From the NCBI RefSeq assembly GCF_000296465.1, contig NZ_JH815204.1, forward strand, positions 612,113-676,112: a stretch of 64,000 nt of DNA, read 5' to 3'. Numbering within the stretch: the stretch's first letter is position 1; each line of letters begins with the position of its first letter. Of this stretch, positions 3,598 to 63,603 are shown in pieces. The stretch is from Barnesiella intestinihominis YIT 11860. Its GTDB lineage: Bacteria; Bacteroidota; Bacteroidia; Bacteroidales; Barnesiellaceae. The notes under the pieces were generated by a model. It had not been told where the DNA came from and did no database searches. It saw only the letters and a program-made list of their open reading frames with translations. The translations under genes were made by a program, and so were the position numbers.

Positions 3598-4005
3598 TTA
3601 TTTTTTAAAAGTGATACATCTATTCATAATGAAATTACACAGTGTATATACGATCATACTCAAAAGTTGAGCCCAAGAATCGGGTACATATAATATCTCT
3701 ACCAAAATGAGTAACGATATAAATTGTATGCCATAGCATATCCCGAAACAGACGAGGAATAAGATGGCTTCGCGGATAAAGTTACTATTTAATTTTTTAA
3801 ATACCCAAAGTTTGTTCCAGAAGAAACTATTGACGACACCTGCTATATAGCCTATAAAATTGGATATGGTATATTTTACATGTAGAATCTCTTGCAGGAA
3901 GTAAATGACGATAAGCGTTATAAGGGTATTTATGATACCGACAATACCGAAACGAATAAATTGTCCTATTGCTTTTTTATCGTATTTTTTCAGTCGTTCG
4001 AACAT
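3598..4005 (-). CDS. GtrA-family membrane protein (putative lipid-linked sugar flippase)
   Basis: A 135-residue protein with four hydrophobic segments and the family pattern QFIRFGIVGIINTLITLIVIY at the start, a central GYIAGVVNSFFWNKLWVF and a C-terminal CNFIMNRCITF. GtrA proteins are thought to flip undecaprenyl-phosphate-linked sugars across the inner membrane. Length and topology match the family. It lies directly before the GT2 gene (12-bp gap) and nine bases after the TRIC gene, inside one minus-strand operon. The transported sugar depends on the specificity of the GT2 partner, which the sequence does not reveal. Confidence 0.88.
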   Translation of the reverse strand: MFERLKKYDKKAIGQFIRFGIVGIINTLITLIVIYFLQEILHVKYTISNFIGYIAGVVNSFFWNKLWVFKKLNSNFIREAILFLVCFGICYGIQFISLLILVEILYVPDSWAQLLSMIVYTLCNFIMNRCITFKK

Positions 4006-4775: not shown

Positions 4776-4848
4776 TACCTTTGCACCAAATGTGGAAATA
4801 GACTGTGCTCGTAGAGTCCGATAAATTTGTTTCTGCTTTTGTTTGCAC
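4776..4848 (+). repeat. 73-bp promoter-bearing repeat unit, decayed copy
   Basis: The unit begins at a good -7 box (TACCTTTG, 4776-4783) and ends 73 bases later where the next -7 box should be, but there the sequence reads TATTTCTC. The right third (ATAAATTTGTTTCTG...GTTTGCAC) is nearly the same as the units at 22.4 and 62.7 kb, while the middle has diverged. It lies upstream of the GHL10 gene, which is therefore probably transcribed from the proximal box. Confidence 0.6.
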
Positions 4849-4872
4849 TATTTCTCTTAATACAAATCTTTA

Positions 4873-6327
4873 ATGAAAAAACGACTGCTAATACTTCTTT
4901 CAGTTTGTTTTATCTGTGTTTCCATATTTCCTTCTTCTCCGAAATATGAAATGAGGGCGGTGTGGATAACAACGAACTGGGGATTGGATTGGCCTTCGCG
5001 TCCGGTAAAGGTTTTGTCCGATAGATATATACAGCAAAAAGAGTTGTGCTATATTCTCGATGAGTTGCAATCGGTAGGAATCAATACGGTGTTTTTTCAA
5101 GCGCGTATTCGAGGTGAGGTTTTTTATTCTTCTCGATACGAACCGTGGGCTGCCGTTTTAAGTCATGGGCGGGAACCCGGATACGATCCTCTTGCTTTCG
5201 TCATTGAGGAATGTCATAAACGGGCCATCGAATGCCACGCTTGGCTCGTCACTTTTCCGGTGGGATCGAATAGGCAAGTGAAAAAACAAGGTCGTTCTTC
5301 GGTTGTTGCCCGCCATCGTTCATGGTGTAAGCAATTATCGGGGGAATGGTTTCTCGATCCGGGGAATCCGGCGGTGAAGGATTATTTAAGAGCATTAGTC
5401 GGGGAAGTCGTTTCTAAATATGATGTCGACGGTATTCATTTGGATTATGTGCGTTATCCCGATAATGCGATGAAATTTCCCGATTCCGATTCGTTTAGGA
5501 AGTGGGGAAGTAGAAGCAAGTCTTTGTTTCGTTGGAGAGAAGACAATATAACCGGTATCGTCACAGCCATTTATGAAGAGGTGAAACGATTAAAGCCGTG
5601 GGTGAAAGTCAGTAGTTCACCGTTAGGTAGATATGCTTCATTAGAAGGTTTCCCTGCGGAATGGAGCTGCATGGAGGCTGTTTCGCAAAATCCGAAAGAT
5701 TGGTTGCAGAGCGGACGGCATGATTTTATTGTCCCGATGATGTATTTCAGAGAAGAAAATTATTATCCGTTCTTGTATGACTGGACAAATTCTTGTCCTC
5801 CCGGAAAAGTAATAAGTGGCTTGGGAGTTTACCGGTTGGATAAGAACGAAGGTAATTGGCCTTTCATAGAAATAAAGAGACAAATCGAGACCACTCGGAA
5901 AATGGGAGTGGGACAGGCCTATTTCCGATATGAAAATTTACATACGCATACGATTTTGAGGCAATGGCTCGTTTCCTGTTTTTACAGGTATCCGGCCTTG
6001 ACACCCGGGTTGAAAAATCCTATATCGCAAATACCGGATACCCCGAACAATTTACGAGTGGAGACACAGGGCGGCATTTCTAATATTTCTTGGAGTCCGG
6101 CAGATGGTGCATTCACCTATGTATTGTATGCGACAAATGATTCTTTGGATATGAATACAGGAGATCAGATAGTGGCTGTATTACCTAAAAATATACATTC
6201 ATGTTCATTGTCGATTCCTTATAGGAATTATGCCATAGTGGCTCGTGACAGGTATGGGACCGAGAGCAAGCCTGCGTTTTGGACGGGTAAAAATATAGAA
6301 CCGGATAAGTATCGAATAACTCTATAA
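4873..6327 (+). CDS. GHL10-type (DUF187) family 10-like glycosylhydrolase, secreted
   Basis: A 484-residue protein with a signal peptide (MKKRLLILLSVCFICVSIFP). The catalytic barrel (about 25-375) opens with EMRAVWITTNWGLDWPSR and contains VDGIHLDYVRYPD, the hallmark of the GHL10/YngK family. A fibronectin-III-like domain follows (about 395-465, starting IPDTPNNLRVETQGGISNISW). The substrate of this family is poorly established; a peptidoglycan or other envelope-glycan role has been suggested for relatives. Export to the periplasm or surface is predicted. manA follows after a 29-bp gap in the same direction, so the two may be co-transcribed. Confidence 0.85.
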   Translation: MKKRLLILLSVCFICVSIFPSSPKYEMRAVWITTNWGLDWPSRPVKVLSDRYIQQKELCYILDELQSVGINTVFFQARIRGEVFYSSRYEPWAAVLSHGREPGYDPLAFVIEECHKRAIECHAWLVTFPVGSNRQVKKQGRSSVVARHRSWCKQLSGEWFLDPGNPAVKDYLRALVGEVVSKYDVDGIHLDYVRYPDNAMKFPDSDSFRKWGSRSKSLFRWREDNITGIVTAIYEEVKRLKPWVKVSSSPLGRYASLEGFPAEWSCMEAVSQNPKDWLQSGRHDFIVPMMYFREENYYPFLYDWTNSCPPGKVISGLGVYRLDKNEGNWPFIEIKRQIETTRKMGVGQAYFRYENLHTHTILRQWLVSCFYRYPALTPGLKNPISQIPDTPNNLRVETQGGISNISWSPADGAFTYVLYATNDSLDMNTGDQIVAVLPKNIHSCSLSIPYRNYAIVARDRYGTESKPAFWTGKNIEPDKYRITL

Positions 6328-19656: not shown

Positions 19657-20445
19657 TTACAGTCCTTTTTGTTTGGCTTCGTCCCAAATGGCATCCATTT
19701 CGGCGAGAGACATATCTTTTAGATTTTTACCTTTTTGTAATGTTTCCTGTTCGAGGTAGTTAAACCGTCGTATAAACTTTTGGTTCGTATGTTCCAATGC
19801 ATTTTCCGGGTTGATGTCATAAAGTCTTGCCGCATTGATGAGACTGAAAAATAGATCTCCGAATTCATTTTCCATATTATCCGGGTTCATGTTTTCTATT
19901 TCATTTTTCAGTTCGCCGAACTCTTCAAAAACTTTGTCCCAGACTTGGCTTTTTTCTTCCCAGTCGAAGCCTACATTGCGTGCTTTATCTTGTATTCGAT
20001 AAGCCTTTATTAGAGCCGGTAAGGCCGATGGCACGCCTTCGAGTACGGTTTTATTACCGCCTTTTTCTTTCAGTTTGAGTTCCTCCCAATTTTGCTCAAC
20101 CTCGTTCGATCCATCGACATGGGTTGTACCGAATACATGAGGGTGGCGATAGATTAGTTTTTCACAAAGAGCATTGCAAACATCGGCAATATCGAAAGAA
20201 CCGTTTTCTTCTCCTATTTTAGCATAGAAAGCGATATGTAACAATACGTCTCCCAACTCTTTTTTAGTGGCTTCGTTGTCCTTTCTGATAAGAGCATCAC
20301 AGAGTTCGTAGGTCTCTTCTATCGTGTTGGGACGTAAACTTTCATTCGTTTGCTTATGATCCCACGGACACTTTTCGCGTAGAATATCGAGGATATCGAT
20401 AAACCGGCCGAATGCCTCTATTTTTTCTTCTCTCGTGTGTGACAT
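19657..20445 (-). CDS. mazG: Nucleoside triphosphate pyrophosphohydrolase MazG
   Basis: A 262-residue tandem-domain MazG. The first domain has CPWDHKQTNESLRPNTIEETYE and the metal-binding pattern E-x2-E...KKELGDVLLHIAF. The second has a parallel FDWEEKSQVWDKVFEEFGELKNEI followed by EFGDLFFSLINAARL. It hydrolyses NTPs, including damaged nucleotides, to NMP and pyrophosphate, and in E. coli can lower ppGpp. It starts four bases after the dsbD stop, so it is co-transcribed with dsbD. Confidence 0.94.
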   Translation of the reverse strand: MSHTREEKIEAFGRFIDILDILREKCPWDHKQTNESLRPNTIEETYELCDALIRKDNEATKKELGDVLLHIAFYAKIGEENGSFDIADVCNALCEKLIYRHPHVFGTTHVDGSNEVEQNWEELKLKEKGGNKTVLEGVPSALPALIKAYRIQDKARNVGFDWEEKSQVWDKVFEEFGELKNEIENMNPDNMENEFGDLFFSLINAARLYDINPENALEHTNQKFIRRFNYLEQETLQKGKNLKDMSLAEMDAIWDEAKQKGL

Positions 20446-20449
20446 GTGT

Positions 20450-22405
20450 TTATTTATTAAATGCTTTTAGTCCTTTTTGTAAGAAATCGATAAATTTAGC
20501 TACGCTTTCATTGTATCCGTATGGGGCGGCTAATGGCTCTCCGTCACTATTGATAATAACATAGTATGGTTGAGCATTGGCTCCGAATTTATGTCTTTGT
20601 AAGAAACTCCATTTTTCACCGACGGTCGTTAGTTTTACCGATTTCCCATTTTCGGTTACCGTAATGGGCTTCTTTAATTTTTCTTTGTCATCGACCATTA
20701 AGGTAATAAGTACGTATTTGTTTTCAAGAATCTGTTTTACAACCGGGTCGGTCCACACGGAAGCCTCCATTTTACGGCAGTTGACACAACCATACCCCGA
20801 AAAGTCGATGAGTATGGGCTTCTTTTCTTGTCGGGCGTACGCCAAACCCTCGTTATAGTCGTTGAAAGCTGCGTGAACTTCTTTATTATATAAGTTGAAA
20901 TCCTGGGTATATAAGGGGGGCGCGAATGCACTGATCGCTTTTAACGGAGCTCCCCACAATCCGGGAATCATATATAATGAAAAAGATAGCGAAATGATGG
21001 CGAGGAATAGACGGGGGACGGAGACGTGTTTAATCGGGGAATCGTGCGAAAAGTTGAGCTTACCGAGCAGATAAAATCCCAACAATGCGAAGATAACGAT
21101 CCAAAGCACCAAAAATGTTTCCCGGTCGAGTATGTGCCACCCATAGGCGAGATCGGCTACCGATAGGAATTTAAGTGATAATGCCAATTCCAAAAAGCCT
21201 AATATGACTTTGACGGTGTTTAACCAGCCTCCCGATTTAGGCAATTGTTTCATTAAAGAAGGGAACATGGCAAATAATGCGAACGGTATGGCTAAGGCGA
21301 TGGCGAAACCTCCCATTCCGACAGCAGGTGCGAGCGTCCCGCCCCAAGAAGCGGCTTCTACTAATAGAGTGCCGATTATGGGTCCGGTACAAGAGAAAGA
21401 AACCAAAACCAATGTAAACGCCATGAAAAAGATAGCGATGATACCGGTTGCGGTGTCGGCCTTCCTATCGAGTTTATTACTCCATGATGCAGGTAGGGTT
21501 ATATCGAAAGCCCCGAAGAAGGAGACTGCGAAAAGAACCAACAGTGCGAAAAACAGTATGTTGAACAAAGCGTTTGTCGCTAAATCGTTAAGGGCACTGG
21601 CTCCGAATAGTAGGGTAATCAGTAAACCCAGTCCTACATAGATAATGATGATGGACAAACCGTATAAGATGGCTTCGCCGATCGCCTTGTGCCGGCTTTG
21701 TTGTTTTTTCAGGAAAAAGCTCACTGTTAGGGGAATCATGGGCCAAACACAGGGTGTTAGTAATGCTAACAATCCTCCGATAAATCCCGATATGAAAATA
21801 AACCAAAGAGAACTTTCTTGCAATAATTTTTCGGTACTCATTGCTCGAAGTTCTTCAACTACTGGCTGCCAGCCTTTTTGACTGGTTAAATTGGAAGATG
21901 AGTTTGTATTAAGATTTACAGGAGTCATAACCGGGGCGGTTGTCGTTGGAGTTTTGCTTTCTCCAAAGGAAAATTCATGTTTGGTTGGAGGCAAACAAGT
22001 TACATCGTTACACGCTTGGTAAGTAATGTATCCTGTAATTTTAAAACTATCGGGATTTTCTATAAATATAGTTTGCTTGAAATCTATTGTAGAATTATAC
22101 CACCCCAATTTCATATCGAATAAAGCGCTATATTCTTCATGAGGTCGTTTAGACGGGGTTACATCTCCCTTTAACGACACATTAGATATATCGTCGAAAG
22201 AGAACGAAGTAGGAATAGGTCCTCCGGAGGGAATATCGGTAGCATATAAATGCCAACCATCTTCTATATATGCGTGAAAAACAATCTCCTTCTCATTACC
22301 TTCTCCTTGCATGGAAACTTTCCATTTGACAGGCTCTATAATTTGAGAATAACTACTCATGCAAAAAAGCATGCCGACGATCAATAAACCTAAAAACTTT
22401 TTCAT
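20450..22405 (-). CDS. dsbD: Thiol:disulfide interchange protein DsbD
   Basis: A 651-residue protein from the ATG at 22405, with a signal peptide (MKKFLGLLIVGMLFCMSSYS). The N-terminal DsbD-alpha domain keeps two cysteines (TYQACNDVTCLPPTK). The membrane domain of eight helices has its redox cysteines in LLTPCVWPMIPLTVSFF and VSFSCTGPIIGTLLVEA. The C-terminal thioredoxin-like gamma domain has CVNC (SGYGCVNCRKMEASVW). All three cysteine pairs are intact, so it should carry reductant from cytosolic thioredoxin to the periplasm. It is driven by a striking array of tandem promoters and followed by mazG. Confidence 0.95.
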   Translation of the reverse strand: MKKFLGLLIVGMLFCMSSYSQIIEPVKWKVSMQGEGNEKEIVFHAYIEDGWHLYATDIPSGGPIPTSFSFDDISNVSLKGDVTPSKRPHEEYSALFDMKLGWYNSTIDFKQTIFIENPDSFKITGYITYQACNDVTCLPPTKHEFSFGESKTPTTTAPVMTPVNLNTNSSSNLTSQKGWQPVVEELRAMSTEKLLQESSLWFIFISGFIGGLLALLTPCVWPMIPLTVSFFLKKQQSRHKAIGEAILYGLSIIIIYVGLGLLITLLFGASALNDLATNALFNILFFALLVLFAVSFFGAFDITLPASWSNKLDRKADTATGIIAIFFMAFTLVLVSFSCTGPIIGTLLVEAASWGGTLAPAVGMGGFAIALAIPFALFAMFPSLMKQLPKSGGWLNTVKVILGFLELALSLKFLSVADLAYGWHILDRETFLVLWIVIFALLGFYLLGKLNFSHDSPIKHVSVPRLFLAIISLSFSLYMIPGLWGAPLKAISAFAPPLYTQDFNLYNKEVHAAFNDYNEGLAYARQEKKPILIDFSGYGCVNCRKMEASVWTDPVVKQILENKYVLITLMVDDKEKLKKPITVTENGKSVKLTTVGEKWSFLQRHKFGANAQPYYVIINSDGEPLAAPYGYNESVAKFIDFLQKGLKAFNK

Positions 22406-22423
22406 ATTACCCAATTTTGTGTG

Positions 22424-22569
22424 GCAAAGATAGTGCAAACGAGGGCAGAAACAAATTTATTTGATTATGCCGAGTGCCGCCTATTTTCGCATTTTTGCAA
22501 AGATAGTGCAAACGAGGGCAGAAACAAATTTATTTGGTTATGCCGAGTGTCGCCTATTTTCGCATTTTT
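22424..22569 (-). repeat. Two tandem 73-bp promoter-bearing repeats upstream of dsbD
   Basis: Units 22424-22496 and 22497-22569 differ at only two of 73 positions, and a third partial copy continues to about 22583. On the minus strand each boundary is a -7 box TATCTTTG (22425-22432, 22498-22505, 22571-22578). For the first two boxes TTTG lies exactly 19 bp upstream (22452-22455 and 22525-22528). The array therefore supplies two full promoters and a third -7 box, all pointing into dsbD. Confidence 0.9.
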
Positions 22570-22685
22570 GCAAAGATAGTGCATATTAGTCAAATCGAAA
22601 ACCGATTCGGCGATATGATTTGGGAAATAATAGATAAAATATGTAGATGAACAAAAATAGTGTTCGCTATGTGGATAATAATTTT

Positions 22686-22693
22686 TACCTTTG
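22686..22693 (+). promoter_or_regulatory. -7 promoter box (TACCTTTG) of the DHH phosphoesterase operon
   Basis: TAnnTTTG on the plus strand, 57 bases upstream of the DHH gene ATG and divergent from the dsbD promoter array. No strong -33 box. Confidence 0.55.
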
Positions 22694-22750
22694 CCATGAA
22701 TGTAAGTATAGTCTTTTCATCGTTAAGTAAAAATCAGACAATAAAGACAA

Positions 22751-35956: not shown

Positions 35957-35988
35957 CAAAGATAGTGCAAAGAAAAAGCACAGGCAAA
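35957..35988 (-). promoter_or_regulatory. Full Bacteroides-type promoter of the TPR/AraC gene
   Basis: -7 box TATCTTTG at 35957-35964 and -33 TTTG at 35985-35988 with a 20-bp spacer (minus strand). The core resembles the distal end of the 73-bp repeat units (AAATTTG...TTTGCACTATCTTTG). Confidence 0.7.
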
Positions 35989-36078
35989 TTTACAGGTTCA
36001 TAAAAGTGCTGTGCGATAGGGCGGAAGTACCCACAGGCGAGGGGAATACATTTTACAATTAAACGTTTTTTTGCAATC

Positions 36079-44929: not shown

Positions 44930-45103
44930 TATATTTGTAACCACGAATATAGGATGCGGCTCGGTATAGCCAAGTCGGAAATGGGATTTCCTCTTGTCTT
45001 TGCTCTCGCCTTTCGCTATATTTGTAAACACGAATATAGGATTCGGTTCGGCATAGTCAAATCGGAAATATAATTCCCTCTTGTCTCTGCACTCACCTTT
45101 CAC
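44930..45103 (+). repeat. Two tandem 87-bp promoter-bearing repeats
   Basis: Units 44930-45016 and 45017-45103 each start at a -7 box TATATTTG, and a third box sits at 45104-45111. Upstream of the second and third boxes CTTG lies 20 bp away (44993-44996, 45080-45083). The units share the core GGTTCGGCATAGCCAA but differ at roughly a sixth of positions, so this duplication is older than that at dsbD. The array points into the gene at 45195. Confidence 0.88.
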
Positions 45104-45194
45104 TATATTTGTTCACAAAGTGATATGTTTGAAAAGAACAACAGTCAAATCGGCTGATAGTATAATTTATCCAACAAATAAAATCATAGAAAAT

Positions 45195-45740: not shown

Positions 45741-46236
45741 TTGGATAACAGGCGCCTATTCTAATGGTGGCAAACTGTACCCCGTTAGCAATCTCGAAAT
45801 GACAGAAATACAATGAATAGAATTTAACACTATACATCTCATTTTTATTGTTGTGCGGTATGGTTCCCGCACAATAAATAGTAAAGGAGCGATTTGCAGA
45901 CTATAATGGATAACTCGACGGTTCTTATTGTGTGGAATCGACACGGGACTGCAAGCCTTATATGTTGCTAAATCGTTGCCTCTACTTCTTAAATAATTAG
46001 ATAAAAGTTTATTTTTCAATTAGTTAAGCTGATTTTATGAAAATCTAAAATAAATTTGTTTCTCTACATCGCTTCTGCTATCTTTGTAAATACGAAGATA
46101 GGATGCGGTTCGGCATAGCCAAGTCGGGAATGTGATTTCCGTTTGTCTCTGCGCTCACCTTTCGCTATCTTTGTAAATTATACGTCTATGATTCATATAA
46201 CATAGATAAATGGAAATCATCGGAATTTAATGAGAT
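45741..46236. other. 496-bp intergenic region with palindrome and promoter repeat
   Basis: The first 300 bases hold no recognisable gene; a small palindrome (TTGTGCGG at 45851-45858 with CCGCACAA at 45867-45874) lacks a T-run. The rest contains an 87-bp promoter-bearing repeat (46079-46165). Confidence 0.55.
46079..46165 (+). repeat. 87-bp promoter-bearing repeat unit upstream of the SmpA-like lipoprotein gene
   Basis: Runs from one -7 box TATCTTTG (46079-46086) to the next (46166-46173). Both boxes have TTTG exactly 20 bp upstream (46055-46058 and 46142-46145), so two complete promoters precede the lipoprotein gene. Core CGGTTCGGCATAGCCAAGTC as in the neighbouring array. Confidence 0.88.
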
Positions 46237-62657: not shown

Positions 62658-62730
62658 TACATTTGCATAAGCGCGAAGATGGGCTACATTCGGCATAACC
62701 AAATAAATTTGTTTCTGCCCTCGTTTGCAC
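62658..62730 (+). repeat. 73-bp promoter-bearing repeat unit upstream of the CvfB-like gene
   Basis: Runs from a -7 box TACATTTG (62658-62665) to the next, TATCTTTG (62731-62738). The second has TTTG at 62708-62711, exactly 19 bp upstream, making a full consensus promoter. The last half is almost identical to the units upstream of dsbD but in plus orientation. Confidence 0.88.
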
Positions 62731-62766
62731 TATCTTTGCAATAAGATTCGTGTAAAATAAACCTAT

Positions 62767-63603
62767 ATGTTACAAGTCGGAAAATTCAATAAGCTCAAAG
62801 TTGTTAAAACGGTCGATTTCGGCGTTTACCTCGACGGGGGAGAGAAGGGAGAAATTTTATTACCACGGAAATTCGTTCCGGAACAATCATGCAGTGAAGG
62901 CGGAGAGATAGATGTCTTTGTTTATTATGATTCGGAAGACCGGCTTATTGCAACGACACAAAAACCGTATGCACAAGTAGGTGAATTTGCGTGGTTACAG
63001 GTAAAGTCGGTGAATAGAATCGGCGCATTTTTGGATTGGGGAGTAGAGGCGAAAGATTTGTTGGTCCCGTTTCGGGAACAAAATACGGATATGCAGCAAG
63101 GCGAGTTTTATATTGTATATGTATATCTCGACTTTGCTACCGGCCGAATAGTCGCTTCCGCAAAATTGGATAAATTTTTAGACAATGTCCCTCCTGAATA
63201 TGAGGCGAATCAACCTGTCGAAATCATAGTAACTCAAAGGACTCCGCTCGGATACAAGGTTATTATCGATAATTTGCATTGGGGGGTGATTTATCACAAC
63301 GAGATTTTCAGACCGATAACCATTGGGGAGCACTTGCGTGCTTATGTAAAACAAGTGAGAGAAGATGATAAGATCGATGTGATGTTACAGCTTCCGGGAT
63401 ATGAAAAAATAGACCCGTTGTGTGAATCGATTTTACAGAAGTTGAATGAAGCGGGAGGGGTGTTACGACTTTCGGATAAATCGCCCGCCGAGGAGATTGC
63501 ACATTATTTCCAGTGTAGCAAGAAGAGCTTTAAAAAAGCGATAGGCGCTTTGTATAAAGCTCGACGCATTGTTATCGAAGAGAACTCTATTCGTAAGTCA
63601 TAA
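62767..63603 (+). CDS. S1-like RNA-binding protein, CvfB family
   Basis: A 278-residue protein. Two or three S1-like beta-barrels are visible: about 1-60 (FNKLKVVKTVDFGVYLDGGE, GEILLPRKFVP), 65-135 (FAWLQVKSVNRIGAFLDWGV, KDLLVPF) and 145-215 (VIIDNLHWGVIYHNEIFRP). The C-terminal winged helix (about 220-278; LRLSDKSPAEEIAHYFQCSK, FKKAIGALYKARRIVI) completes the CvfB layout. CvfB binds RNA and influences virulence-factor expression in staphylococci; the role in Bacteroidetes is unknown. Its promoter is delivered by a 73-bp repeat. Confidence 0.92.
   Translation: MLQVGKFNKLKVVKTVDFGVYLDGGEKGEILLPRKFVPEQSCSEGGEIDVFVYYDSEDRLIATTQKPYAQVGEFAWLQVKSVNRIGAFLDWGVEAKDLLVPFREQNTDMQQGEFYIVYVYLDFATGRIVASAKLDKFLDNVPPEYEANQPVEIIVTQRTPLGYKVIIDNLHWGVIYHNEIFRPITIGEHLRAYVKQVREDDKIDVMLQLPGYEKIDPLCESILQKLNEAGGVLRLSDKSPAEEIAHYFQCSKKSFKKAIGALYKARRIVIEENSIRKS

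Follow-up and report, generated by a model that had tools for sequence, protein, structure and literature searches.

REP/RAYT systems are present in genomes as many small palindromic intergenic copies, and the integrase of CTnDOT prefers a core much like TAnnTTTGC. Small elements that bear promoters have also been described. BrickBuilt, a MITE of Porphyromonas gingivalis, is presented in the accessible part of its description as a 23-nt repeat with a leader and a tail, occurring in 19 copies at 49-591 nt from genes, with GAAA or AAAA target duplications; promoter activity was reported, and the element was proposed to be a putative mobile promoter (PMC4596501). The Correia elements of Neisseria, according to the available portion of a MITE review, are short, carry inverted repeats and promoters and lie mostly just upstream of genes, one of them immediately downstream of the mtrCDE promoter (PMC10969869). 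For B. thetaiotaomicron, a -33/-7 promoter consensus and a 5' UTR of mostly 23 nt are given in the accessible sections of the corresponding study (PMC7366714).

The locus considered here is an array of two promoter-bearing units upstream of dsbD in Barnesiella intestinihominis YIT 11860, located in a 64,000-nucleotide stretch of DNA (the window, meaning the whole stretch analysed). Its features are as follows:

19657-20445, minus strand: mazG (MazG domain)
20450-22405, minus strand: dsbD (DsbD_N, DsbD_TM and thioredoxin domains)
22406-22424, minus strand: leader of 19 nt, from the proximal box to the dsbD ATG
22425-22497, minus strand: proximal 73-bp unit in the TTTG-to-TTTG register (model R1, 78.7 bits)
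22425-22432 and 22452-22455, minus strand: the proximal unit's own -7 box TATCTTTG and its -33 TTTG
22498-22570, minus strand: distal 73-bp unit (model R1, 77 bits)
22498-22505 and 22525-22528, minus strand: the distal unit's -7 box and its -33 TTTG
22571-22578, minus strand: ancestral dsbD -7 box TATCTTTG, assigned by the match of its flank to the single promoter of congeners

Tandem Repeats Finder reported 22424-22583 with a period of 73, 2.2 copies, 97% matches and a score of 306, the top score among its nine rows in the window, and a repeat search divided the region into units at 22424-22496 and 22497-22569, followed by the 14-nt GCAAAGATAGTGCA at 22570-22583. Between the two units, 2 of 73 positions differ, so that the near-identical tandem repeats described in the initial annotation are real. 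Both complete units, read on the minus strand, have the form TTTG-N19-TATCTTTG, which matches the Bacteroides -33/-7 pattern as given in the accessible part of the source (PMC7366714). As had also been noted, the unit is as long as one box-to-box distance, its end falls at a -7 box, and every unit brings one further -33/-7 pair. Allowing up to 3 mismatches, the window contains the core GGCAGANACAAATTTATTTG four times (two of these being the dsbD units), compared to 0.01 expected from shuffles. Both dsbD and mazG lie on the minus strand downstream of the array with 4 nt between them, mazG being the probable operon partner of dsbD, and the divergent neighbour of dsbD encodes a DHH-family protein. 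An Rfam search of the whole window at the gathering score returned no known RNA family.

The dsbD site was compared with that of eight Barnesiella congeners. In six of them, one promoter lies in a conserved block and is followed by 20-25 nt and then the dsbD ATG, so that these sites read as empty ones. In B. intestinihominis, the conserved block ends at box 22571-22578, after which come the two units and 19 nt to the ATG; the flank upstream of this box matches the congeners' single promoter above all 22 null genes in each of the six relatives scored. What had been taken for a partial third copy therefore resembles the units in the box only, and the relatives identify it as the ancestral dsbD promoter box, now 146 bp from its original place. 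The copy number across species is zero units in six, 65 unrecognised extra nt in two (G002 and G006) and two units in B. intestinihominis. The 65 nt lie at the insertion point and end in GTTTGCnCTATnGTTG, which by eye resembles a worn right arm; the family model described below did not recognise them on that strand at E <= 1, and their reading as a diverged unit was dropped. A tree from part of DsbD places B. intestinihominis basal to the other eight, then G007, followed by G002, G006 and a clade of five whose order is not settled.

Two further observations concern the region between dsbD and the divergent DHH gene. Approximately 60 nt (ATTATTATCCACATAGCGAACACTATTTTTGTTCATCTACATATTTTATCTATTATT; within 22579-22700 and the same region in L040-L048) are, by eye, near-identical across the eight congeners with diverged flanks, and perhaps represent a shared regulatory site. 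On the DHH side, weak family matches with E of 4e-4 to 0.013 were obtained near 3605-3738 on the plus strand in L040, L041, L042, L043 and L046; the divergent promoter may carry worn units.

The dsbD units belong to a large dispersed family. BLAST of the unit against its own genome (3.44 Mb, five contigs) gave 34 matches at E <= 1e-3, of which 31 start at base 1 or 2 of the box end. A sequence-only family model, built from 29 of these copies, gave 154 matches at E <= 1 in the same genome; among the 150 matches listed, at least 98 had E <= 1e-5 and at least 133 had E <= 1e-3, and these counts are lower bounds since 150 of 2,260 first-look candidates were scored. At E <= 1e-5, the eight congeners contain 23-54 copies each, G036 (from another family of the order) contains 89 and G029 (from a further family) contains 16; G010, G015 and G030, which were chosen among genomes with no BLAST matches, yielded no family member at the same threshold. 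Order-wide BLAST with the consensus, with at most three candidates scored per genome, found matches in 20 of 295 genomes and 12 of 183 genera. The other members in the window are as follows:

4784-4853, plus strand: single unit after ancestral box TACCTTTG (4776-4783), its own box decayed; gene start at 4873
35957-35996, minus strand: right-arm-only family match (E 8.8e-6)
44938-45024, plus strand: unit of an 87-bp subtype after box TATATTTG (44930-44937), with its own box at 45017-45024
45025-45111, plus strand: second unit of the 87-bp subtype, with its box at 45104-45111
46087-46173, plus strand: unit of the 87-bp subtype after box TATCTTTG (46079-46086), preceded by a partial right-arm match at 46048-46086
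62666-62738, plus strand: single 73-bp unit after ancestral box TACATTTG (62658-62665); gene start at 62767

Near-identical promoter-bearing sequence thus stands before unrelated genes, with three copies at 97%, and the proposal that the array is an expression device for dsbD-mazG is not supported, since the family to which its unit belongs is dispersed and stands before such genes. A plasmid search with the unit gave no match. In the phage collection, eight unannotated fecal contigs named "Bacteriophage sp." (MT835691.1 and seven other MT83xxxx records) showed partial unit matches with 74-93% identity and may stem from the host or from a prophage; a scan of viral contigs for exact 20-mers found none.

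Units measure 73-92 bp from box to box. At the resolvable loci, a unit opens with an arm (GCGAAAATAGG is an example) that mostly lies 4-8 nt beyond the TTTG of the box upstream, has a centre that is often palindromic, and closes with its own -33/-7 pair. The unit is an imperfect palindrome with a variable centre (CAAATAAATTTG, CAAGCGAGCTTG, CAAATCGGAAATGAATTTTCCGTTTG, CAAACCTGCAAGGTTTG), and its ends GCGAAAATAG and CTATCTTTGC form imperfect inverted repeats. The TTTG (or TAnnTTTG) is common to both unit ends, being part of the unit and of the host; by eye, we found no duplicated host bases beyond this shared TTTG. Whole-unit folding gave a mean z of -1.77 over 53 distinct units, which is moderate, with p <= 0.05 for 12 of 46 distinct centres, and the dsbD unit folded as DNA gave a z of -0.18. 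RNAalifold kept the central hairpin alone (five pairs, two with double-sided changes, energy about 0), and, its support being confined to this hairpin, we do not claim a conserved RNA structure.

The comparison made at dsbD was extended to other loci, chosen as BLAST matches. Gene starts were assigned downstream of 23 of the 34 unit places, an ORF start 4-216 nt downstream being required, so the closeness of units to start codons is partly a matter of choice. Orthologues of 22 genes were taken from up to six congeners, 120 of 121 upstream regions were read, and dsbD was added. For each relative, the 40 nt leading up to its last box were aligned to every own box, with the other 22 genes serving as the null. 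Six of the 20 scored loci were resolved (dsbD, L004, L014, L021, L026 and L030), and at each of the six, one or two unit lengths separate the ancestral promoter from its former place, the unit beginning directly 3' of the ancestral -7 TTTG. Relatives exceeding all 22 nulls numbered 6/6 at dsbD, 5/5 at L021, 6/6 at L026, 4/6 at L004, 3/4 at L030 and 2/6 at L014, and the inserted lengths were 146 bp at dsbD, about 70 bp at L021, 76 bp at L026, 73 bp at L004, 74 bp at L030 and 158 bp (82 + 76) at L014. No scored locus, out of 20, had a relative whose promoter matched the last own box better than every null. At the other 14 scored loci the ancestral promoter was too diverged to place the insertion, and three further loci were unscored; L011 passed in one of four relatives, a match that is probably of unit against unit.

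The clearest case is L026, where the relatives read tatatttg|CTACCAAACTAGTTAGAT and B. intestinihominis reads tatatttg|unit...tatctttg|TTGCCAAACTATTTAAAT; of the own boxes, the first still has the TATATTTG of the relatives and the last has the family's TATCTTTG. At L014, upstream of a gene that seems ispD-like from the start of its protein, B. intestinihominis carries two unlike units. The match is to the ancestral box in G002 and G006 and to an inner unit in G007; the family model finds two matches in G001 and one in G007, and none at E <= 0.01 in G002, G003, G005 and G006, a pattern which suggests that one site has been used repeatedly. The leader 3' of the last own box is most like the leader of the same gene in relatives for 10 of 17 genes and is not distinctive for the remaining 7, dsbD included. 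Leader lengths differ from those of relatives by a median of 1.25 nt (16 of 22 loci with enough values); their correlation is weak (Spearman 0.44, p 0.09), most genes sharing 20-25 nt, and as one of the values (L021) was taken inside a unit with a decayed own box, we rely on the paired difference instead. At the resolvable loci, these comparisons place the entry of the unit directly 3' of the TTTG of an existing TAnnTTTG, with the host box remaining upstream and the leader downstream.

The same rule was seen when boxes were counted across the family, using 48 matches at E <= 1e-3 in 30 own loci (5 of 53, with E above 0.001, were excluded). A TAnnTTTG ends 0-10 nt upstream of 25 of the 40 units with a full left end, about one or fewer being expected; allowing for the 1-nt offset of one subtype, a perfect TAnnTTTG stands upstream of 28 of 40, compared to 0.8% at shifted positions of the same loci. 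Some of the boxes so counted belong to upstream units, i.e., reflect nesting. With arrays counted once, the first unit is preceded by a perfect box in 21 of 32, by one with one mismatch in 2 and by neither in 9, which leaves 11 of 32 arrays without a perfect upstream box. G036 contains nine arrays with 2-6 boxes spaced 80-86 bp apart, reaching six boxes at 81-bp steps, and in five of the nine the first box follows, by eye, sequence with no family resemblance. Also in G036, the spacers between box and left arm in L261-L275 form small hairpins whose stems covary by eye (CCG..CGG, CTG..CAG). A second array type in this genome (L264, L268 and L269) has a 73-75-bp period with altered inner -7-like boxes (CACTTCTTTG, CGCTAATTTG, CACTAATTTG), the last box alone reading CACTATCTTTG, CGCTATATTTG or CACTATATTTG.

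We consider it likely that a small mobile repeat, non-autonomous and promoter-bearing, inserted twice to give the dsbD array. Because a -33/-7 pair of its own closes the unit, the new box comes to stand where the old one stood with respect to the start codon, and because that end reads TAnnTTTG, the landing site is made anew at every insertion, which explains the arrays. Judging by consensus and position, each insertion would add a working sigma-ABfr promoter; the host promoter would be demoted to a distal one, and its transcript would run through the unit. The -7 box would itself be the target, read by a recombinase supplied in trans or by a single-strand process; we infer targeting because insertions upstream of the promoter would also be tolerated, and survival alone would not align all six cases. 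Two kinds of mover would fit, namely a tyrosine recombinase that uses TAnnTTTG as its core and a process at the opened box that works on single strands or by repair. According to the first of these, a circle released from an array and carrying one TAnnTTTG core would integrate at any -7 box; the TAnnTTTG direct repeats that flank every unit and the two different boxes at L026 are as this would predict, but a double-stranded circle of 73 bp would be strongly strained, and we regard this route as possible though somewhat unlikely. A wider proposal, by which the landing site would be the melted -7 box of active sigma-ABfr promoters, reached under the guidance of RNA polymerase and outside known transposase families, with each insertion rebuilding its target together with a new promoter, perhaps stronger or under different regulation, and thereby rewiring and stacking Bacteroidales promoters, is speculative, and we think it rather doubtful as a whole.

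The growth of the array can alternatively be explained by local tandem duplication of the dsbD promoter, through slippage or unequal crossing-over, giving a tunable promoter counter. The dsbD units are indeed 97% identical and head to tail, and recombination between two such near-identical units, once present, can alter their number. The unit, however, does not derive from the dsbD promoter: it is absent from six congeners, and the ancestral box shares only 14 nt with it. Furthermore, the two dsbD units and the unit before the gene at C2:791417, which lies 157 kb from them, differ pairwise at 2 of 73 positions with one private change each, and these equal distances form a star, as expected if all three copies came from one source. 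Across the 15 arrayed units of the B. intestinihominis genome, the best match elsewhere is closer than the neighbour for 10 and ties with it for 4, the neighbour being strictly closer for 1, and arrays combine unlike subtypes (82 + 76 bp at L014, score 0.42). On the other hand, among the nine arrayed units of G036 the neighbour is closest for six, with one tie and two closer to a copy elsewhere, and L265 contains two identical neighbouring units, so that local duplication does occur in the family too, and arrays that begin by insertion can grow in either way. For the arrays of B. intestinihominis, these distances favour repeated insertion, and we judge duplication to be an improbable origin of the dsbD array; slippage as the source of that array is not favoured, given units equidistant from a copy 157 kb away and, for 14 of 15 arrayed units, a neighbour no closer than the best match elsewhere. 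A change in copy number at the dsbD array is possible, and the origin of the array is not explained thereby. In L006 (C2:27074-27219), two units of an array share the spacer AAACAGAT with bodies that score only 0.60 against each other, which hints at partial conversion between neighbouring units.

It is very unlikely, in our view, that the units are operator-promoter sequences of a regulon, held before many genes by selection and with no mobility: the palindromic centre overlaps the -33 TTTG and the -33 to -7 spacer is conserved, which speaks for this reading, but the units are present or absent at orthologous sites, fall into lineage-specific subtypes and precede unrelated genes. Least credible of all are REP-like elements whose single strands a Y1 transposase (RAYT/IS200-IS605) would insert 3' of a tetranucleotide with no target duplication, for despite the imperfect palindrome, the insertion 3' of TTTG with duplication not evident and the single Y1_Tnp found in B. 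intestinihominis and in G033 (which has two weak unit matches), PF01797 is absent from all eight congeners and from the unit-rich G036 and G029, and G010, G015 and G030, with 3-6 Y1 matches each, contain no family members at E <= 1e-5, so that a general need for the transposase is effectively refuted, barring an enzyme that was lost or has diverged beyond what the model recognises.

Insertion of a mobile promoter-bearing unit at -7 boxes offers a concrete and testable account of how the genes of this lineage may have gained stacked promoters. By landing behind a -7 box, a unit would leave leader and reading frame intact and add a start site at the old distance, and the event could recur. If this is true, promoter turnover in a major gut group is a process of mobile elements, with filled and empty sites at orthologous positions. 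It also calls for caution, since a single array of this kind should not be taken for a gene-specific regulatory device.

A literature search, with most subscription papers outside its scope, found no units inserted at Bacteroidetes -7 boxes; within the literature searched, promoter-bearing MITEs are known, and none that inserts at a -7 box and rebuilds its target was found among them. REP/RAYT sequences resemble the units in being numerous, small, palindromic and intergenic, but the family enzyme is absent from the congeners, and the units have promoter motifs and box-to-box boundaries. The target core of CTnDOT is said to resemble the TAnnTTTG of the units, CTnDOT itself being a large conjugative element. 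The Correia elements belong to another phylum, and the available portion of their description contains no -7 box rule or self-nesting arrays (PMC10969869). BrickBuilt differs from the 73-92-bp units in its 23-nt tandem core with leader and tail, which the units lack, and the accessible part of its description, unlike ours, includes neither placement at a -7 box nor rebuilding of the target; what BrickBuilt shares with the units, on the same account, is that it is dispersed, intergenic and built of tandem repeats (PMC4596501).
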